Shown one piece after another: positions 39,174 through 45,611 of a stretch of DNA of 57,301 bases (its first letter is position 1; every line of letters starts with the position of its first letter). The notes beneath the pieces are model-generated. The model made no database searches and was not told where the DNA came from. It worked only from the letters and a program-made list of their open reading frames with translations. The stretch covers positions 1-57,301 of IMG/VR virus record IMGVR_UViG_3300043496_000172; one strand, 5' to 3'. The translations under genes were made by a program, and so were the position numbers. Source of the stretch: a virus.

Positions 39174-41070
39174 GAGTGAACCCTCGGTGTAGCGCGGCCA
39201 GGAGTAGGCGAGGCTCATGCTCCAGGCCACGTTCCAGCAGCATGGAGCAGTAGCGGTGCAAGGTAACGGCTAGCTCCTCGTTTTCCTCTGCTTCACCGAG
39301 GTACACGGTCAGGTGATCCCAGGCCCCTTGAAGCAGCTTCGAGGCACCACCGACCGGAATAGCGACCTTGGTGTGCAAGGAATACACCGGAACGTCCGAA
39401 TGGGTTCGGTGATGATTGCCCACCAGCCTCTTCCCGGCCACTTCCAGTGCCCGGATGACAGCAACGTTGAGTACCCGGAACGTGGCATCGTCTACCCCTG
39501 GGCCAGCAGCTGCGGTGATACCCGGTGGCTGGCTGGCGTTACTGGTGATCGGACCACCTGGTGTGGAGATGGCGGAACTATCCTGCGGCATGGGCTCGGG
39601 ACCGGTTGGCTGGATCCCGGTCGGGGGTGCTGGCGGTGGAGGCGGACCCGCTCCAGGTTGCCCGGGCTGGGCAATGACAGTGTTCGCCGGCAGGATCGAC
39701 TCGGAGATACCGGCGGCCTTGCGTACGGCCGGGTTCTGGAACAGGTTCGGGTCCCGCTCCATGAGGGTCCGGATGAATTTCCGGGTGTCTTCTTCCTCGC
39801 TGGGCTTGTCGGTGAGAGCGAAGTCGCCGGCAAGAATGACCGCTTCGTCGGAGATGATGCCTTTCTCGTTCAGGTTGAGGGCATCTTTCAACCGTTCCGG
39901 GCGTACCGTCAGCGGTGCTGTGTCGTACCAGAAGACGTACCGTTCCGGGTCTTCCTTGATGGCCTTCAGCGCTGGACCGAGATACGCATGCGTGAGGGCG
40001 TCACAGATCCGAGTCATGAGAGGCTCGATATGGATCTTGATGTTCGCTTCCTCGACGTGCCAGGCGCTCCAGTGGTTACTGTCCCCCGTGCCGGTAAGGA
40101 TCTCTGGAGCTATATCCATGGCCAGGGCGAACCGTCGGATTGCTTCTGCCCGAAGCTCAAGTGCCTGCTTACTGAGTTCGGAACCGAAGCTGATCAGCTC
40201 GATCTTCCCGAGGGCATCTGCTGGCATCTCTACGAACATGGGCACTACCCCGGCCGCTGTTCCCTCACCCTTGAGGCTTCGGGAACCTGCCTTCATCATC
40301 GCCTGGGTAAGACCCTCGGCTCCGGGGATGGAGACTTCGTTCCCGTCATCTGGAAAAGAAGCTTCCTTCGGAATCGGGACCATGCCAGCGGAAACCAGGC
40401 GGCTGTCAATCTGAGCGAAAACGTAGCGGGTTAGCCGCTCGATCTCCCACAGCATCGGCATCGCAGCCCGGGTCGGGGAATCAGCCCAGAGGCTTCGGCG
40501 AGGATGTGGTGTCCAGACCCGGATGACGATGTCCTTATCAAGATCCAGAACATCCTGCGTTCCATCCGGATACAGCTGATACACATTGCCACGCCAACGT
40601 TTCAGCTCCGAACAGCTGACCACATACCACTGGTCAGCATCCTGATCCCGGACTGCTCCACGCCCCACGATGTAGCAGTCCCCGGCCACCGTCAGGTTGA
40701 TGGCGAGCATCCGCATCGCCTCAGACATCGCCGCCGGGGAACCGAACAGGTTCTCCGCGATCGCAGCGACCTTCGCCTTCTTGGTCTCCTGCTGTACGCG
40801 CCCGTTCTTGTCAACATCAGCGACATATACGCGCACCCGAGAACACGCCGACCCGACCCAGTTCGTCGCGAACCGAAGCTCACCGATGATGTCGTACAGC
40901 CGCCACACTTCCTGCTGCCAGGAATCGTCACCGAACTTGTACGTCTGCCAGCCGAGCCCCTCCAGGTTTCGGATACGGGCAGCAGAAGCAATCAACGGTT
41001 CCAGAATCGACTCGTGGTTTTCCGGCTCCGGTTCGGCAACTGGTGGCTTCGGCCGGCGGAATCCTGCCAT
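39160..41070 (-). CDS. portal protein
   Basis: The 636-residue product has portal features: a conserved front part (LYDIIGELRFATNWVGSACS), the helical middle with FALAMDIAPEILTGTGDSN and HVEEANIKIHIEPLMTRICD, and a Pro/Gly-rich C-terminus (GQPGAGPPPPPAPP). Portals form the dodecameric ring at one vertex through which TerL pumps DNA. It follows the terminase and membrane gene and precedes MuF. The Pro-rich tail is a common variable region. Confidence 0.9.
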   Translation of the reverse strand: MAGFRRPKPPVAEPEPENHESILEPLIASAARIRNLEGLGWQTYKFGDDSWQQEVWRLYDIIGELRFATNWVGSACSRVRVYVADVDKNGRVQQETKKAKVAAIAENLFGSPAAMSEAMRMLAINLTVAGDCYIVGRGAVRDQDADQWYVVSCSELKRWRGNVYQLYPDGTQDVLDLDKDIVIRVWTPHPRRSLWADSPTRAAMPMLWEIERLTRYVFAQIDSRLVSAGMVPIPKEASFPDDGNEVSIPGAEGLTQAMMKAGSRSLKGEGTAAGVVPMFVEMPADALGKIELISFGSELSKQALELRAEAIRRFALAMDIAPEILTGTGDSNHWSAWHVEEANIKIHIEPLMTRICDALTHAYLGPALKAIKEDPERYVFWYDTAPLTVRPERLKDALNLNEKGIISDEAVILAGDFALTDKPSEEEDTRKFIRTLMERDPNLFQNPAVRKAAGISESILPANTVIAQPGQPGAGPPPPPAPPTGIQPTGPEPMPQDSSAISTPGGPITSNASQPPGITAAAGPGVDDATFRVLNVAVIRALEVAGKRLVGNHHRTHSDVPVYSLHTKVAIPVGGASKLLQGAWDHLTVYLGEAEENEELAVTLHRYCSMLLERGLEHEPRLLLAALHRGFTHADP

Positions 41071-41075
41071 GTGCG

Positions 41076-41366
41076 CTACTCCCTGTCAGCCGCTCGAAGA
41101 ATCAATGCGCACGCCATTGACCCGGCCGGGATAGAGAGCACAGCCAGGAACCAGACGGGGTGCCAGTAATAAACGACAGGAAGCAGGATCGAAAACCACA
41201 TCGACAGGCACCACGGCGCACAGAGAATGAGTTTCGAAATCCAGGCGGAGGTTCCGAAGCGGTTCAGGATGGCGCGACGGAACGGAAGAGTGAGGGCGTC
41301 CTCAGCGATGAGACGGCTCATGCGCGCTGCTGCGAGCGTGGCCGTGATCAAAGCGAGTATAAGCAC
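41076..41366 (-). CDS. small membrane protein, 96 aa
   Basis: The product has an N-terminal hydrophobic helix (MLILALITATLAAARMSRLI), then a basic loop, then two further hydrophobic helices (LILCAPWCLSMWFSILLPVV and VWFLAVLSIPAGSMACALI). The RLIAEDxLT pattern near the start recalls DUF1360 proteins found between terminase and portal genes in actinophages. Role unknown, perhaps membrane modification on infection. Confidence 0.65.
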   Translation of the reverse strand: MLILALITATLAAARMSRLIAEDALTLPFRRAILNRFGTSAWISKLILCAPWCLSMWFSILLPVVYYWHPVWFLAVLSIPAGSMACALILRAADRE

Positions 41367-41423
41367 GTCTCATACTCTAATGGTTCTTACTGCGCAAGGG
41401 ATACATGCGGAACAGTTTGGACA

Positions 41424-41454
41424 GTTGCCACCGTCTCCGCCCCAGGGGTAGGGT
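41424..41454 (+). promoter_or_regulatory. candidate rightward promoter with CCCCAGGGG palindrome
   Basis: TTGCCA (41424-41429), 18 bp, then TAGGGT (41449-41454) on the + strand; the palindrome CCCCAGGGG at 41440-41448 fills the end of the spacer, as at 4970 and 44634. It points into the gene-free C-rich gap, opposite to the late operon. Confidence 0.5.
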
Positions 41455-41459
41455 GCAGA

Positions 41460-42315
41460 GGTTCGACCTGACCCTTCTTCTCAGCGTCTACCCGACCCCG
41501 GTCACACCGACTCACCTACCCAGCACACCCCATCCGACCCTGTCAGTCGACTCGCCGGCCCTCCTTCACCTCTGACTAGCCCTCTCTGCTCCAGTCCGAT
41601 CCGTTCGACTCTCCTTTTCCCTGCCATTTCCAACCGCTTCCTACGACTGCCTCTTCCAGTTCGGATCGACCCTGTCAGTCGACACTGTGGCCCATACCCG
41701 CTCGTTGTCCTCTCGCATCTTCCGACCGAGCACTCCACCTCACCACCGTCTCCTCTCACCTATCGATCGACTGCCCTCTTCGCCCCCTTTCCTTCTGACG
41801 ACACGTCTCAACCCCCTCCATGCACACGCCGACTACACCCAGCCTCTCGTATCCCATCTATGCCTATCGACAAATCAGCTCGTATCCATACCCATCCCAT
41901 CGACGAATCAGATCGCCTCGCAGCTGCCCAACCGACACGCCGTGCCGTTCTCCGACCGCTCCGCACTGACATTCCACTTCATCCTCATCTCGGCGCGGTC
42001 CCGATCCGACGGAGCGCATCACCTCGCAACCGTTTCTGACCCGTCCCACCTCTGCTGACTTCCCCGGTCACCCCTGAGCACTTCCATTGACAAACCCGCA
42101 CGTATCAGTCCTCCTCGACTTCGCACGTCATGCTCGCCTCTCGTCACTTCAGCTGACTCTTCTGCCGGCCACTTCCCACGCCAGCTCTCCCGACCTGCCG
42201 TTACGCAACTTCCCTGCCCAGTCCAGCATCCCTGCCGACTTCCCACCGACCTCTCACCTCCGACGACGATGCGATCCCGGTCATCAACTTCCCGCATCGC
42301 CTCGACCACCCAGTC
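41460..42315 (+). other. 856-bp gene-free C/T-rich gap in the late block
   Basis: Between terL and the small membrane gene I see no credible coding sequence. Open frames on both strands lack start signals and translate to Ser/Pro/Arg-rich nonsense. The + strand is C/T-rich and poor in G, with repeats such as CCCTGTCAGTCGAC (twice, near 41539 and 41671) and many YGACTTC/TCGACT words. It is antisense to the leftward late mRNA, unless the promoter at 41424 transcribes it. Confidence 0.65.
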
Positions 42316-42319
42316 CCTC

Positions 42320-44584
42320 TCAACCCAGTCCCCCCCACTGTGGTTGAAGATTCGACAGGTCGTAGTACGACTGATCCAGGTTCCACTCTTGCGAGGAAGG
42401 GCTAGCGATTCTCATGATGCGACGTTCACCGGCCATCAGATGCAGTACGCCGTGAACCATGGCATCCATGCGGTCTGGCGACTCCCGAGTGGACTCGGGA
42501 GCGAAGATGACCATTTCATTTTCGAGTTCATCCCACTCGCCGACGAGGTGGAGTTTTCCTTGCTCACAACGCATGGCAACTGGTTCGGCTCTTGTCCGTT
42601 TGCCATGTTTCGCATGCACAGCTTTCATTGAAGGAGTGCTATGTTCAGGGAACAGTCCGAGGTTCATCGATTCTTTGAAGGCATCCTCCAGAACCTCAGC
42701 CAGATACCGTTTACCAAGGTTCTCTTCATAAACCAGAATGTCAGCGTTCCACTTGGCTACTGCCCGCCACGCTGCAAGAGCTGCTGTTCGACCACTCTGC
42801 TCAACGGAGGCGTCTTCAAGTACATAAATGTCGTTGTTCACGGTCCGCGCGACTACCACGATGCCGAACAGGTCGTCTTCTCCTGTCAGGTTCGGGTCAA
42901 CACCAACCACGGTCGAGATGATGTCCTCGGGGATCACGGTCACCCGGCCTCGGATTATGTCCATCCGTTTGAATAGGCCACCGACACCAAGCTCCAACAG
43001 TTTCCCGTACAGCTCCTGCTGGCCAAGGTCCGTGTCCGCATACCGGATCTTCAGTTCCCGCAGGACATGCGAGGACAGGTTCATCGCGTTGTCGAACGTG
43101 GAACCACCCATCACGTGGATCGTCCCGTCGTCCCGCTTCACCCACTCCTGCAACAGCTTGATCGGTTTCGGGGTAGTGGTGGCGAAGCAGCGAGGATGGT
43201 CGTCGATCAGGTCGGTACGCAAGGAAGGAAGGATCCCCTCATACCAGCTCTCATACGACTTCGGCCATTTGCAGTTATGTACCAGGAGACCGCCCGCGAA
43301 GAACTGCGGAACTCCCTGCACAGTCAGGTCATAGACCGGAACTGGATGGCAGCCCTTGTGCACGGCGACGACGCGCGTCGGCTTGCCGACGTCCGGCGAA
43401 TCGGCCTGCACACAGAGGGGTGCAGTACTTTGCTCGCATACCTGTGCTGAAAAATGTTTCGCCACATTCTGCGCACACCACTGCCCGGGGTTGTCGCTGT
43501 GTCCACATGTTTCGCAGCCCCCGACTCGTTCGATCAGATCGGTCAGCCACCCAGGCAGCGTCGGTTCTACTGATGGCAGTGAGTCTGCGGTGCTCTGAGA
43601 CGGTGAGGCATTCGAGGTTGTCCGGCCGGTTGTCCCAGCGCTTCCCGTTGATGTGGTTGATCTCGTGGTCTGCTGGGATTTCTCCGTAGAGCTTGGCCCA
43701 GAGACTTCGGTGGAGCAGGGATCCGCTGCGGTTGAGGTGGTATCCCATGCGTTTGTTGAAGTACCAGCGTTCGCCGTCCCAGTCGTAGAAGGCTGGCGCT
43801 TCGCTGGGTACTGGTTCTTTTGCGGAAGCCATGTCACCATGGTATCGCCAGGTTGTACCTGATCTGCGCGGATCCAGCCGTGCTCCTCGGTCCATACACG
43901 ATGATTCGGCGTGACTGTGACGGCGGCATCTTCGGTCAGGAGAACCAGAACTTCGGCTGACTTCTCAGTGAGTCCAGCGGATTGGACCCGACGGTAGCCA
44001 TGGAGAGTCGTAACGTAATCCTGCGTAGTAACGCATTCGATCGGAACAACGCCTCGGTCGGTGGCGATAGCGGATCCGTAGGCGATGCAGATCTCGTCTA
44101 CCCAAGCACCCGCAGCGTTGTATCCACGCCCTACGTCTTCGTCATCCGCGCCCTCGGCGTAGATCCTGGAGCCGTTCGGGAACAAGACCATCGGCCTCGG
44201 GGACTGCTTGTACCGGAAGTCGACCCCACGACGGGTAAGTACACGCAGGAGCCCAGCTGGTCCCTCCATACAGATGGTGCGTGTATCCGCGAGCGTTTCC
44301 CCAATCAAGAGCCATTCCGTTGGTTGCTGGTTTCGGTCGAATGGGTGCTGAAGAACTTTCTCTACGAGCCATTCGGCTCCAGCTCGACTCTTTCCCCATC
44401 CTCGGCCGGCGAGTGCGAGTGCAACGAGCCAGTTTCCCGGTGGTGGCACCTGCTCGGGACGTGACACCCACCACCATTCACCTCGGTTGATTTCTTCAAC
44501 GAGTTGGAGGGGCAAGGATTCCAGCCAGTCCAAGCGCTCGCGCTCTGGAAGCAGGGCTACTCGTTGCGCGGCAGATAGGGACAT
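42320..44584 (-). CDS. terL: terminase large subunit precursor containing an intein
   Basis: A 754-residue frame. The N-extein (1-165) holds the ATPase: Walker A AGRGWGKS (59-66) and Walker B ending WVDE (161-164). Residues 166-437 are an intein. The C-extein (438-754) resumes with CKWPKSYESWYEG, the coupling region FATTTPKP, and the nuclease domain with VGVDPN, VYEEN and SPDRMDAMVHG acidic residues. After splicing TerL is 482 residues, normal for the family. It packages DNA into the head through the portal. It is the first gene of the leftward late block. The TerS candidate lies 12 kb away. Confidence 0.95.
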   Translation of the reverse strand: MSLSAAQRVALLPERERLDWLESLPLQLVEEINRGEWWWVSRPEQVPPPGNWLVALALAGRGWGKSRAGAEWLVEKVLQHPFDRNQQPTEWLLIGETLADTRTICMEGPAGLLRVLTRRGVDFRYKQSPRPMVLFPNGSRIYAEGADDEDVGRGYNAAGAWVDEICIAYGSAIATDRGVVPIECVTTQDYVTTLHGYRRVQSAGLTEKSAEVLVLLTEDAAVTVTPNHRVWTEEHGWIRADQVQPGDTMVTWLPQKNQYPAKRQPSTTGTANAGTSTNAWDTTSTAADPCSTEVSGPSSTEKSQQTTRSTTSTGSAGTTGRTTSNASPSQSTADSLPSVEPTLPGWLTDLIERVGGCETCGHSDNPGQWCAQNVAKHFSAQVCEQSTAPLCVQADSPDVGKPTRVVAVHKGCHPVPVYDLTVQGVPQFFAGGLLVHNCKWPKSYESWYEGILPSLRTDLIDDHPRCFATTTPKPIKLLQEWVKRDDGTIHVMGGSTFDNAMNLSSHVLRELKIRYADTDLGQQELYGKLLELGVGGLFKRMDIIRGRVTVIPEDIISTVVGVDPNLTGEDDLFGIVVVARTVNNDIYVLEDASVEQSGRTAALAAWRAVAKWNADILVYEENLGKRYLAEVLEDAFKESMNLGLFPEHSTPSMKAVHAKHGKRTRAEPVAMRCEQGKLHLVGEWDELENEMVIFAPESTRESPDRMDAMVHGVLHLMAGERRIMRIASPSSQEWNLDQSYYDLSNLQPQWGGLG
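43274..44089 (-). other. intein coding region within terL (272 aa)
   Basis: Block A starts at C166 (CIAYGSAIATDRGVVPIECV). Block B is VTVTPNHRVWTEEHGWI with the TxxH pair. Block F is PVYDLTVQGVPQFFAGG, and block G LLVHN ends at N437, followed by C438 as the +1 nucleophile. All residues for class 1 splicing are present. No LAGLIDADG endonuclease is in frame. Instead residues about 255-345 are low-complexity Ser/Thr/Ala/Pro sequence, because this stretch also encodes an HNH protein in another frame. Confidence 0.95.
43329..43832 (-). CDS. HNH homing endonuclease encoded out of frame inside the intein
   Basis: A 167-residue protein on the terL strand, one base back (-1) from the terL frame. It has an N-terminal WYFNKRMGYHLNRSGSLLHR, then LWAKLYGEIPADHEINHING and KRWDNRPDNLECLTVSEHRR, the full HNH_3 pattern with H56, N59, H60 and N68/N72. 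A zinc motif follows (C120, C123, C137, C141) and a basic tail. ATG 43832 is the likely start, with only a weak GGTG upstream. All of it lies inside the intein, so 504 bp are read in two frames. It would make the intein mobile. Confidence 0.9.
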   Translation of the reverse strand: MASAKEPVPSEAPAFYDWDGERWYFNKRMGYHLNRSGSLLHRSLWAKLYGEIPADHEINHINGKRWDNRPDNLECLTVSEHRRLTAISRTDAAWVADRSDRTSRGLRNMWTQRQPRAVVCAECGETFFSTGMRAKYCTPLCAGRFAGRRQADARRRRAQGLPSSSGL

Positions 44585-44623
44585 GTGTCCACATTAGGAC
44601 TACCTGGTCCGTAAAAGAATCAC

Positions 44624-44652
44624 TTGCAATTTACCCCAGGGGTGGGTACGGT
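44624..44652 (+). promoter_or_regulatory. promoter of the bL28/tRNA region with CCCCAGGGG palindrome
   Basis: TTGCAA (44624-44629), a 17-bp spacer holding ACCCCAGGGGT (44633-44643) and TACGGT (44647-44652). It lies in the divergent region between terL and the bL28 gene and reads rightward. A GAAGGGA ribosome-binding site and ATG 44685 follow. Confidence 0.75.
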
Positions 44653-44684
44653 GGAGCTACCACGGAAACCGAAGGGATCCCTTG

Positions 44685-44900
44685 ATGTCAGGAACCTGCG
44701 ACACCTGCAATAAAGGACCAGGTTTCGGCAACCGCGTCTCCCGACTCGGACGCAACGCACTGAAGCGCAAGGTAAAGAAGCGAGCGCCCCGAATGTTCCG
44801 AGCCAACATCCAGACGGTTCACACCGTCGTCAACGGAGCCCGTAAGCGTCTGCGTATCTGCACCTCCTGCCTCAAGAAGGGAGTCCACAGCGGTGCCTGA
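44685..44900 (+). CDS. rpmB: ribosomal protein bL28 homologue
   Basis: A 71-residue basic protein. It opens with SGTCDTCNKGPGFGNRVS and closes with ANIQTVHTVVNGARKRLRIC followed by TSCLKKG, matching actinobacterial bL28 over its whole length, including both CxxC zinc pairs (C5, C8 and the C-terminal CTSC). A basic stretch of about nine extra residues (ALKRKVKKRAPRMFR) replaces the usual HSHRRTSRRW. bL28 sits near the E site of the 50S subunit. A phage copy could enter host ribosomes and bias translation. ATG 44685 has GAAGGGA upstream; TTG 44682 is less likely. Confidence 0.92.
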   Translation: MSGTCDTCNKGPGFGNRVSRLGRNALKRKVKKRAPRMFRANIQTVHTVVNGARKRLRICTSCLKKGVHSGA

Positions 44901-44991
44901 ACCAGACCGTAAGTCAGATCTGGATCGGATCAAAAAGGAACAGGACGCTGACAAGGCGAAGGCAGAAAAGGACCGCAAGAAGGACAAGTAG
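44893..44991 (+). CDS. 32-aa Lys/Asp-rich microprotein
   Basis: GTG 44893 overlaps the bL28 stop by eight bases. The product (MPEPDRKSDLDRIKKEQDAD and a KAKAEKDRKKDK end) is a highly charged single helix. No known family. Tight coupling to bL28 suggests it is translated with it, but such a short frame could be fortuitous. Confidence 0.45.
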   Translation: MPEPDRKSDLDRIKKEQDADKAKAEKDRKKDK

Positions 44992-45066
44992 ACGTGCACC
45001 TGGTGCGAATTGTTACGGTTACTTCATTTTGCGAATAAACCCGTAACTGATCTGATCTCAGGTGCC

Positions 45067-45108
45067 GGACCAGACCGAGCTTGACTTCCAACATGCTCGG
45101 TCTGGTCC
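45067..45108 (+). terminator. 14-bp hairpin between bL28 operon and tRNA
   Basis: GGACCAGACCGAGC (45067-45080) pairs perfectly with GCTCGGTCTGGTCC (45095-45108) around a 14-base loop. It has no T run and ends four bases before the tRNA, so it may be a terminator, a processing signal for the tRNA, or both. Confidence 0.6.
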
Positions 45109-45112
45109 ACCC

Positions 45113-45186
45113 GGGTCTATAGCTCAATGGGAACGAGCCCGGAACTTTTTTGACCGGAGATGTGGGTTCAAATCCCACTGGATCCA
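45113..45186 (+). tRNA. tRNA with abnormal anticodon arm (possibly Lys-UUU)
   Basis: A 74-nt cloverleaf: acceptor GGGTCTA with TGGATCC (two G-U pairs), D stem GCTC/GAGC with a GG-containing loop, and a T arm GTGGG-TTCAAAT-CCCAC. The anticodon arm is odd: CCGG pairs with CCGG, but the next pair is A-A, leaving a nine- to eleven-base loop around CTTTTTTG. By position the anticodon would be UUU (Lys) with U at 37. CCA is not encoded. It may be degenerate, or a specialised tRNA with a larger loop. Confidence 0.75.
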
Positions 45187-45190
45187 CGAG

Positions 45191-45282
45191 GCAGGGCGGC
45201 ATGGCCACGAAGAAACTGTGATAAGTCGCAGCATCTTCGACCGATCCGCGAGCGTGTCCCCCGTATACCGGAGCCGCCCTGC
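45191..45282 (+). other. structured region, possible small RNA
   Basis: GCAGGGCGGC (45191-45200) and GCCGCCCTGC (45273-45282) form a perfect ten-base-pair closing stem around 72 nt, right after the tRNA. The interior has a weak GTCG/CGAC hairpin but no T-arm motif, so it is not a standard tRNA. It could be part of the same transcript and protect or process it. Confidence 0.4.
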
Positions 45283-45302
45283 TTCACCAGGAAAGGGAAC
45301 CC

Positions 45303-45596
45303 ATGAAAAAGGTGACACTCCTCGTGTTTACGGTGTTGCTGCTGTTTGGGTGCAGCGCCCCGGAGTCGGGGACGGTGATGAACAAGCACTACAGCGAACC
45401 GTATGACTGGGTTGGTTCCCAGTGCTACGCCTATGGCAAAAACGGTGCCTGCACGCTGACGATGCCGGTGGTTCATCACGTCTCGGCGTCATGGAGCTTG
45501 TGTCTGCGCAACGGTGAGGATGAAGGCTGCCGCAGCGTGGATGAGCGCACCTGGCATGAGTACGAGGTCGGTGACGACTATCCCCGCCATCATTGA
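45303..45596 (+). CDS. small lipoprotein, 97 aa
   Basis: ATG 45303 follows AGGAAAGGG. A lipoprotein signal is clear: basic MKK, hydrophobic VTLLVFTVLLL, then the lipobox LFGC with Cys 17. The mature part has four further Cys and a WVGSQCYAYGKNGACTLTMP segment, so it is probably disulphide-bonded outside the membrane. Phage lipoproteins of this size often block superinfection. A strong terminator follows. Neighbour genes are the tRNA and a regulator. Confidence 0.8.
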   Translation: MKKVTLLVFTVLLLFGCSAPESGTVMNKHYSEPYDWVGSQCYAYGKNGACTLTMPVVHHVSASWSLCLRNGEDEGCRSVDERTWHEYEVGDDYPRHH

Positions 45597-45611
45597 AATT
45601 TCACAAACCAG

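Follow-up and report, generated by a model that had tools for sequence, protein, structure and literature searches.

An HNH gene overprinted in the -1 frame of a viral terL intein, and the recurrence of this layout among its relatives

Analysis of the window, which comprised the whole 57,301-nt stretch of the IMG/VR record IMGVR_UViG_3300043496_000172, showed a gene for the terminase large subunit (terL) that carries an in-frame intein, with an HNH gene lying in a second reading frame of the intein DNA (Table 1). The first intein residue (C1) is encoded from position 44089, the final Asn codon ends at 43274 and the +1 Cys is encoded at 43273-43271. The boundaries could be fixed because related phages have an intein-free terL. 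Six viral contigs (L004-L009) read DEICKWP across the site, with a best segment 83-85% identical; the insertion is precise, in frame and missing from these homologues. The presence or absence of the intein is patchy among close relatives. The Pfam Intein_splicing match scored slightly under the Pfam gathering score, and the NCBIfam model intein_Cterm (TIGR01443) matched the C-terminal part of the intein above its cut-off. No Rfam match to a group I or group II intron RNA was found in 41000-45600. A tRNA-Lys (TTT) is located just upstream of terL on the opposite strand (45113-45187). The stretch of about 1 kb that separates terL from its neighbouring gene (41400-42400) contains no convincing gene, and its GC skew is strongly negative (to -0.50).

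Table 1. Positions of the terL gene, its intein and the overprinted HNH gene in the window.
Feature	Position	Strand	Basis
terL, terminase large subunit ORF with in-frame intein (754-aa precursor)	42320..44584	-	Pfam Terminase_6N 9.6e-16, Terminase_6C 4e-10
Intein, 272 codons, site DEI/C1 ... VHN/C+1	43274..44089	-	Empty alleles, intein ends, Pfam Intein_splicing 1.1e-7
N-terminal splicing half, intein residues 1-89	43823..44089	-	pLDDT 92-98 per block; Foldseek to mini-inteins
C-terminal splicing half, intein residues 231-272	43274..43399	-	pLDDT 82-97 per block; TIGR01443 above cut-off
Linker predicted to be disordered, residues 91-230, shadow of the HNH gene in the intein frame	43400..43819	-	Mean pLDDT about 35-50 per block, without secondary structure
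Overprinted HNH_3 gene, 167 codons, -1 frame of terL	43329..43832	-	ATG conserved in same-site relatives; AF2 mean pLDDT 87.7
HNH_3 catalytic domain, HNH residues 39-83	43584..43718	-	Pfam HNH_3
Four-Cys zinc site C120, C123, C137, C141	43410..43475	-	Conservation in relatives

AlphaFold modelling of the intein produced a complete and confident HINT fold from the two terminal segments. Foldseek matched the model to mini-inteins and to the split inteins gp41-1 and NrdJ-1, and the intein profile likewise matched gp41-1 and NrdJ-1. C1, the block B histidine H63 and N272 are invariant, with a Cys at the +1 position. As terL is one single ORF, the two separate ORFs of a split intein are not seen here.

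The HNH ORF starts 752 nt into terL and, since 752 mod 3 = 2, lies in the -1 frame; the endonuclease is thus outside the intein frame in which a canonical full-length intein would carry it. Both frames are open from the ATG at 43832 to the stop ending at 43329. The product belongs to HNH_3 (PF13392; E = 5.8e-16, 58.3 bits against a gathering score of 24.8). The zinc cysteines C120, C123, C137 and C141 are invariant in the window clade; among 45 relatives, C120 is invariant and each of the other three is present in at least 90%. The preliminary description of an HNH gene wholly within the intein, with an intact catalytic pattern and a four-Cys zinc site, was therefore confirmed in coordinates, frame and content. 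The AlphaFold model of the HNH protein was confident, and a Foldseek search with it returned no significant solved match (none with E ≤ 0.001). By sequence, the closest solved relative was I-HmuI (PDB 1u3e; E = 0.0036).

The start of the HNH gene was assigned to the ATG at 43832 because the HNH frame of four same-site relatives (L015, L016, L017 and L023) contains a stop shortly before the conserved ATG, at a distance of 4-5 codons. In the window itself, 44 open codons precede this ATG in the HNH frame, and a further in-frame ATG exists at 43895. The 44 open codons would fit a protein that ribosomal frameshifting fuses to the N-terminal splicing half, but the stops in the four relatives make this very unlikely. 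No clear Shine-Dalgarno sequence precedes the window ATG (GGTGACATG), which counts against expression of the HNH gene. A match of at least five bases was present at some candidate start in approximately one quarter of the -1 clusters, compared with 5% of background start codons, a loose contrast because several starts were tried per gene; there was none in the window or in any +1 cluster.

The intein-frame shadow of the HNH gene is rich in Ser, Thr, Ala and Pro (46% of residues), in agreement with the preliminary description, which had read this low complexity as a sign of secondary opening. That history is not needed. C-ending HNH codons, at 71 of 167 wobble positions (43%), suffice to produce the composition, because they are read one base later in the intein frame, where HNH position 3 becomes intein position 2. 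In pairwise comparisons, HNH position 3 was the most variable, a normal coding pattern for the HNH frame, and identity in window pairs was 0.57-0.59 for HNH compared with 0.29-0.35 for the shadow. Constraint on the shadow amino acids would be expected to lower divergence at four-fold sites of HNH, and such a reduction was present in some close pairs. As this reduction was missing from most pairs, we do not claim amino-acid selection on the shadow, which from these comparisons looks to be under selection for openness rather than for its own sequence. A Cys cluster in the intein frame of the window (GGCETCGHSDNPGQWC), considered as a second zinc site, was rejected, being not conserved in the same-site relatives.

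The weak translation signal would also fit a real dual coding in which the HNH gene is now inactive or unexpressed, the intein being passed on vertically or through general recombination. We regard this as unlikely, given that the HNH motif and zinc cysteines are intact and conserved, that the HNH amino acids are more conserved than the shadow, and that the intein comes and goes among close relatives. The position of the gene and this patchy distribution are what suggest that the HNH protein may be a homing endonuclease.

The same terL site is occupied in L002, L015, L016, L017 and L023 by an intein with a -1 HNH gene, both frames being open. In the more distant terL of L132 (2900-5300), an intein at the equivalent site carries a -1 HNH gene with three zinc-ribbon-like repeats, again with both frames open. 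Identity just downstream of the insertion site was 0.90-0.95, compared with about 0.79, which could reflect co-conversion or plain conservation and was not used as evidence. At the terL Walker A motif, four of these relatives show a +1 shift at GG(A/C)TTTCGG (L002 near 4426, L015 near 1585, L016 near 746 and L017 near 4426). As both sides of the shift stay conserved, this is a candidate programmed +1 frameshift; L023 and the intein-free L128 have TTTGG at this site, with no extra base.

The metagenomic origin of the contig, and the presence of in-frame HNH inteins in other genes (L024, L025), raised the question of whether a sequencing or assembly frameshift had disrupted an ordinary intein in which the HNH domain was in frame. 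An error merging the two frames was looked for and not found: the two frames recur in independent relatives at this site, and dozens of further loci, including isolated phages such as TJE1, are fully open in both frames with their own ends. Because two compensating errors would be needed every time, this explanation is not credible.

The survey of relatives identified -1 HNH genes inside terL inteins of Tetrasphaera phage TJE1, Acinetobacter phage Highwayman, Rhodobacteraceae phage LS06-2018-MD07, a human faecal phage record, a Streptomyces plasmid and a Halobacterium plasmid. The haloarchaeal plasmid with the double-coded layout carries phage genes. The Streptomyces plasmid pS1D4-14.2 (L030, 1474-2989) is annotated with an HNH gene and a truncated terminase, and its frame is one continuous terL with an intein and an overprinted HNH gene. 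A scan of viral contigs with these HNH sequences gave 80 loci, with HNH at -1 of an open frame in 44, at +1 in 25 and in neither position in 11; because overprinted members supplied the query, these proportions do not represent frequencies in the population. HNH in frame with a terL intein, which was sought specifically, occurred at 0 of the 80 viral loci. In a sample of the surveyed loci, the host-frame sequences contained intein blocks where terL has its C-terminal motif. The preliminary description had correctly presented a homing-type enzyme and a splicing domain sharing DNA unfused; its view of this as an unusual solution needs amending, the layout being common in this HNH family. An intein DNA search of a phage collection gave no match, and two scans of genome contigs with HNH gave no confirmed relative. 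Microbacterium phage terL inteins (L011-L013) occupy another site and have no HNH among the longest ORFs of the other same-strand frames.

Base composition alone could leave a second long ORF open by chance, with only one of the two frames being a gene. When the GC-rich window was shuffled synonymously with the HNH protein fixed, the intein frame stayed open in 2.8% of shuffles; when the intein frame was held instead, 0.075% of shuffles left the HNH frame open, so the double openness exceeds chance. Since a count of stops among loci already classed as open would be circular, the shadow-frame test was applied to all 81 HNH clusters at 80% identity, irrespective of prior open or closed class. 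Open shadows were seen in 49 clusters at -1, compared with 3.0 expected from synonymous shuffles, and in 11 at +1, compared with 0.01 expected; 0 of 200,000 simulations were as high as either count. The lower number of expected shadow stops in -1 than in +1 may explain the -1 excess. The surveyed loci ranged in GC from 0.31 to 0.68, and the low-GC relatives (0.31-0.40) were equally open. Given also the HNH_3 match in one frame, and the HINT halves bounding an intein frame that joins the terL exteins, a chance ORF is extremely improbable. In free-standing HNH relatives beside terL or terS (L027, L038, L042, L043, L044), shadow stops occurred at about the expected rate.

Members of the HNH family are thus also found free-standing, and others lie between the halves of split terL inteins. 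The latter arrangement was seen in L031, L032, L041, L045, L083, L084, L085 and L090, where the C-terminal intein half is a separate ORF, unannotated in CL2 (L045). In the HNH tree these states are interspersed: the split L084 pairs with the overprinted L112 (100/89), and the free-standing L043 with the overprinted L034 (99/93).

We consider it likely that the element in the window is a mobile intein in which two genes occupy shared DNA, including homing through the HNH product and an origin by invasion of the linker. For splicing, for translation of the HNH gene, for cleavage and homing, and for the way the element arose, we infer the following course. In the terL frame, the HINT splicing domain, its halves joined by a long disordered linker, should excise and restore TerL. 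In the -1 frame, the linker DNA would serve as a separate HNH_3 gene, with start and stop codons of its own; its product should cut intein-free terL, and repair would then copy the intein in. The linker, the usual place of an endonuclease domain, was probably entered by an autonomous terL-associated HNH homing gene. Because the HNH gene has retained a stop codon, TerL would be truncated if the insertion were in frame, and therefore only an out-of-frame insertion over an open shadow, or splitting of the intein, would survive. Both of these outcomes are present, and an in-frame member in terL was not found.

Judged on sequence, the double-coded layout recurs as a means by which an intein carries a putative mobility gene unfused, which suggests that intein mobility may be possible without fusion to the nuclease. 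On balance, we favour the view that these loci represent a widespread and so far undescribed intein class, in which an autonomous homing gene is overprinted at -1 or +1 and which may interconvert with split inteins and free-standing homing genes. The layout would explain why such nucleases escape annotation and would offer a route from continuous to split inteins. Selection on two frames becomes measurable in dozens of natural stretches, each roughly 450-650 bp long, that are double-coded. No earlier report of an overprinted nuclease inside an intein was found in the open literature searched, so that the novelty is provisional.

An out-of-frame HNH has been reported in a phage methylase, which is not an intein (PMC11855218). 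The ShiLan-type insertion resembles the window in that the HNH is hidden in another frame, the host frame is open and there is no recognisable RBS; in Mantra, the HNH is also at -1, as in the window. However, ShiLan is without intein motifs and is not known to splice, whereas in the window HINT halves are present in the host frame on either side of the HNH, and the insertion is marked as an intein by the empty sites. In full-length inteins the endonuclease lies between the N- and C-terminal splicing halves, at a site described as highly conserved (PMC6801210). The window shares this position, but its endonuclease is a separate gene in another frame rather than a domain fused in frame. A closer likeness is to the 'fractured genes', split inteins whose halves are separated by an endonuclease gene, reportedly described by Dassa et al. 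in 2009. There too an independent endonuclease gene occupies the linker position, and six of the close HNH relatives (L031, L041, L045, L083, L084, L090) are of that kind; split inteins are in two parts, whereas terL and intein in the window form one continuous ORF, and splicing would be in cis. With the I-HmuI-type HNH homing endonucleases, the window shares an HNH enzyme of putative homing function, I-HmuI being its best solved sequence relative. I-HmuI lies in a group I intron; the window locus, in contrast, has no intron RNA match (41000-45600), and its HNH carries a zinc site.
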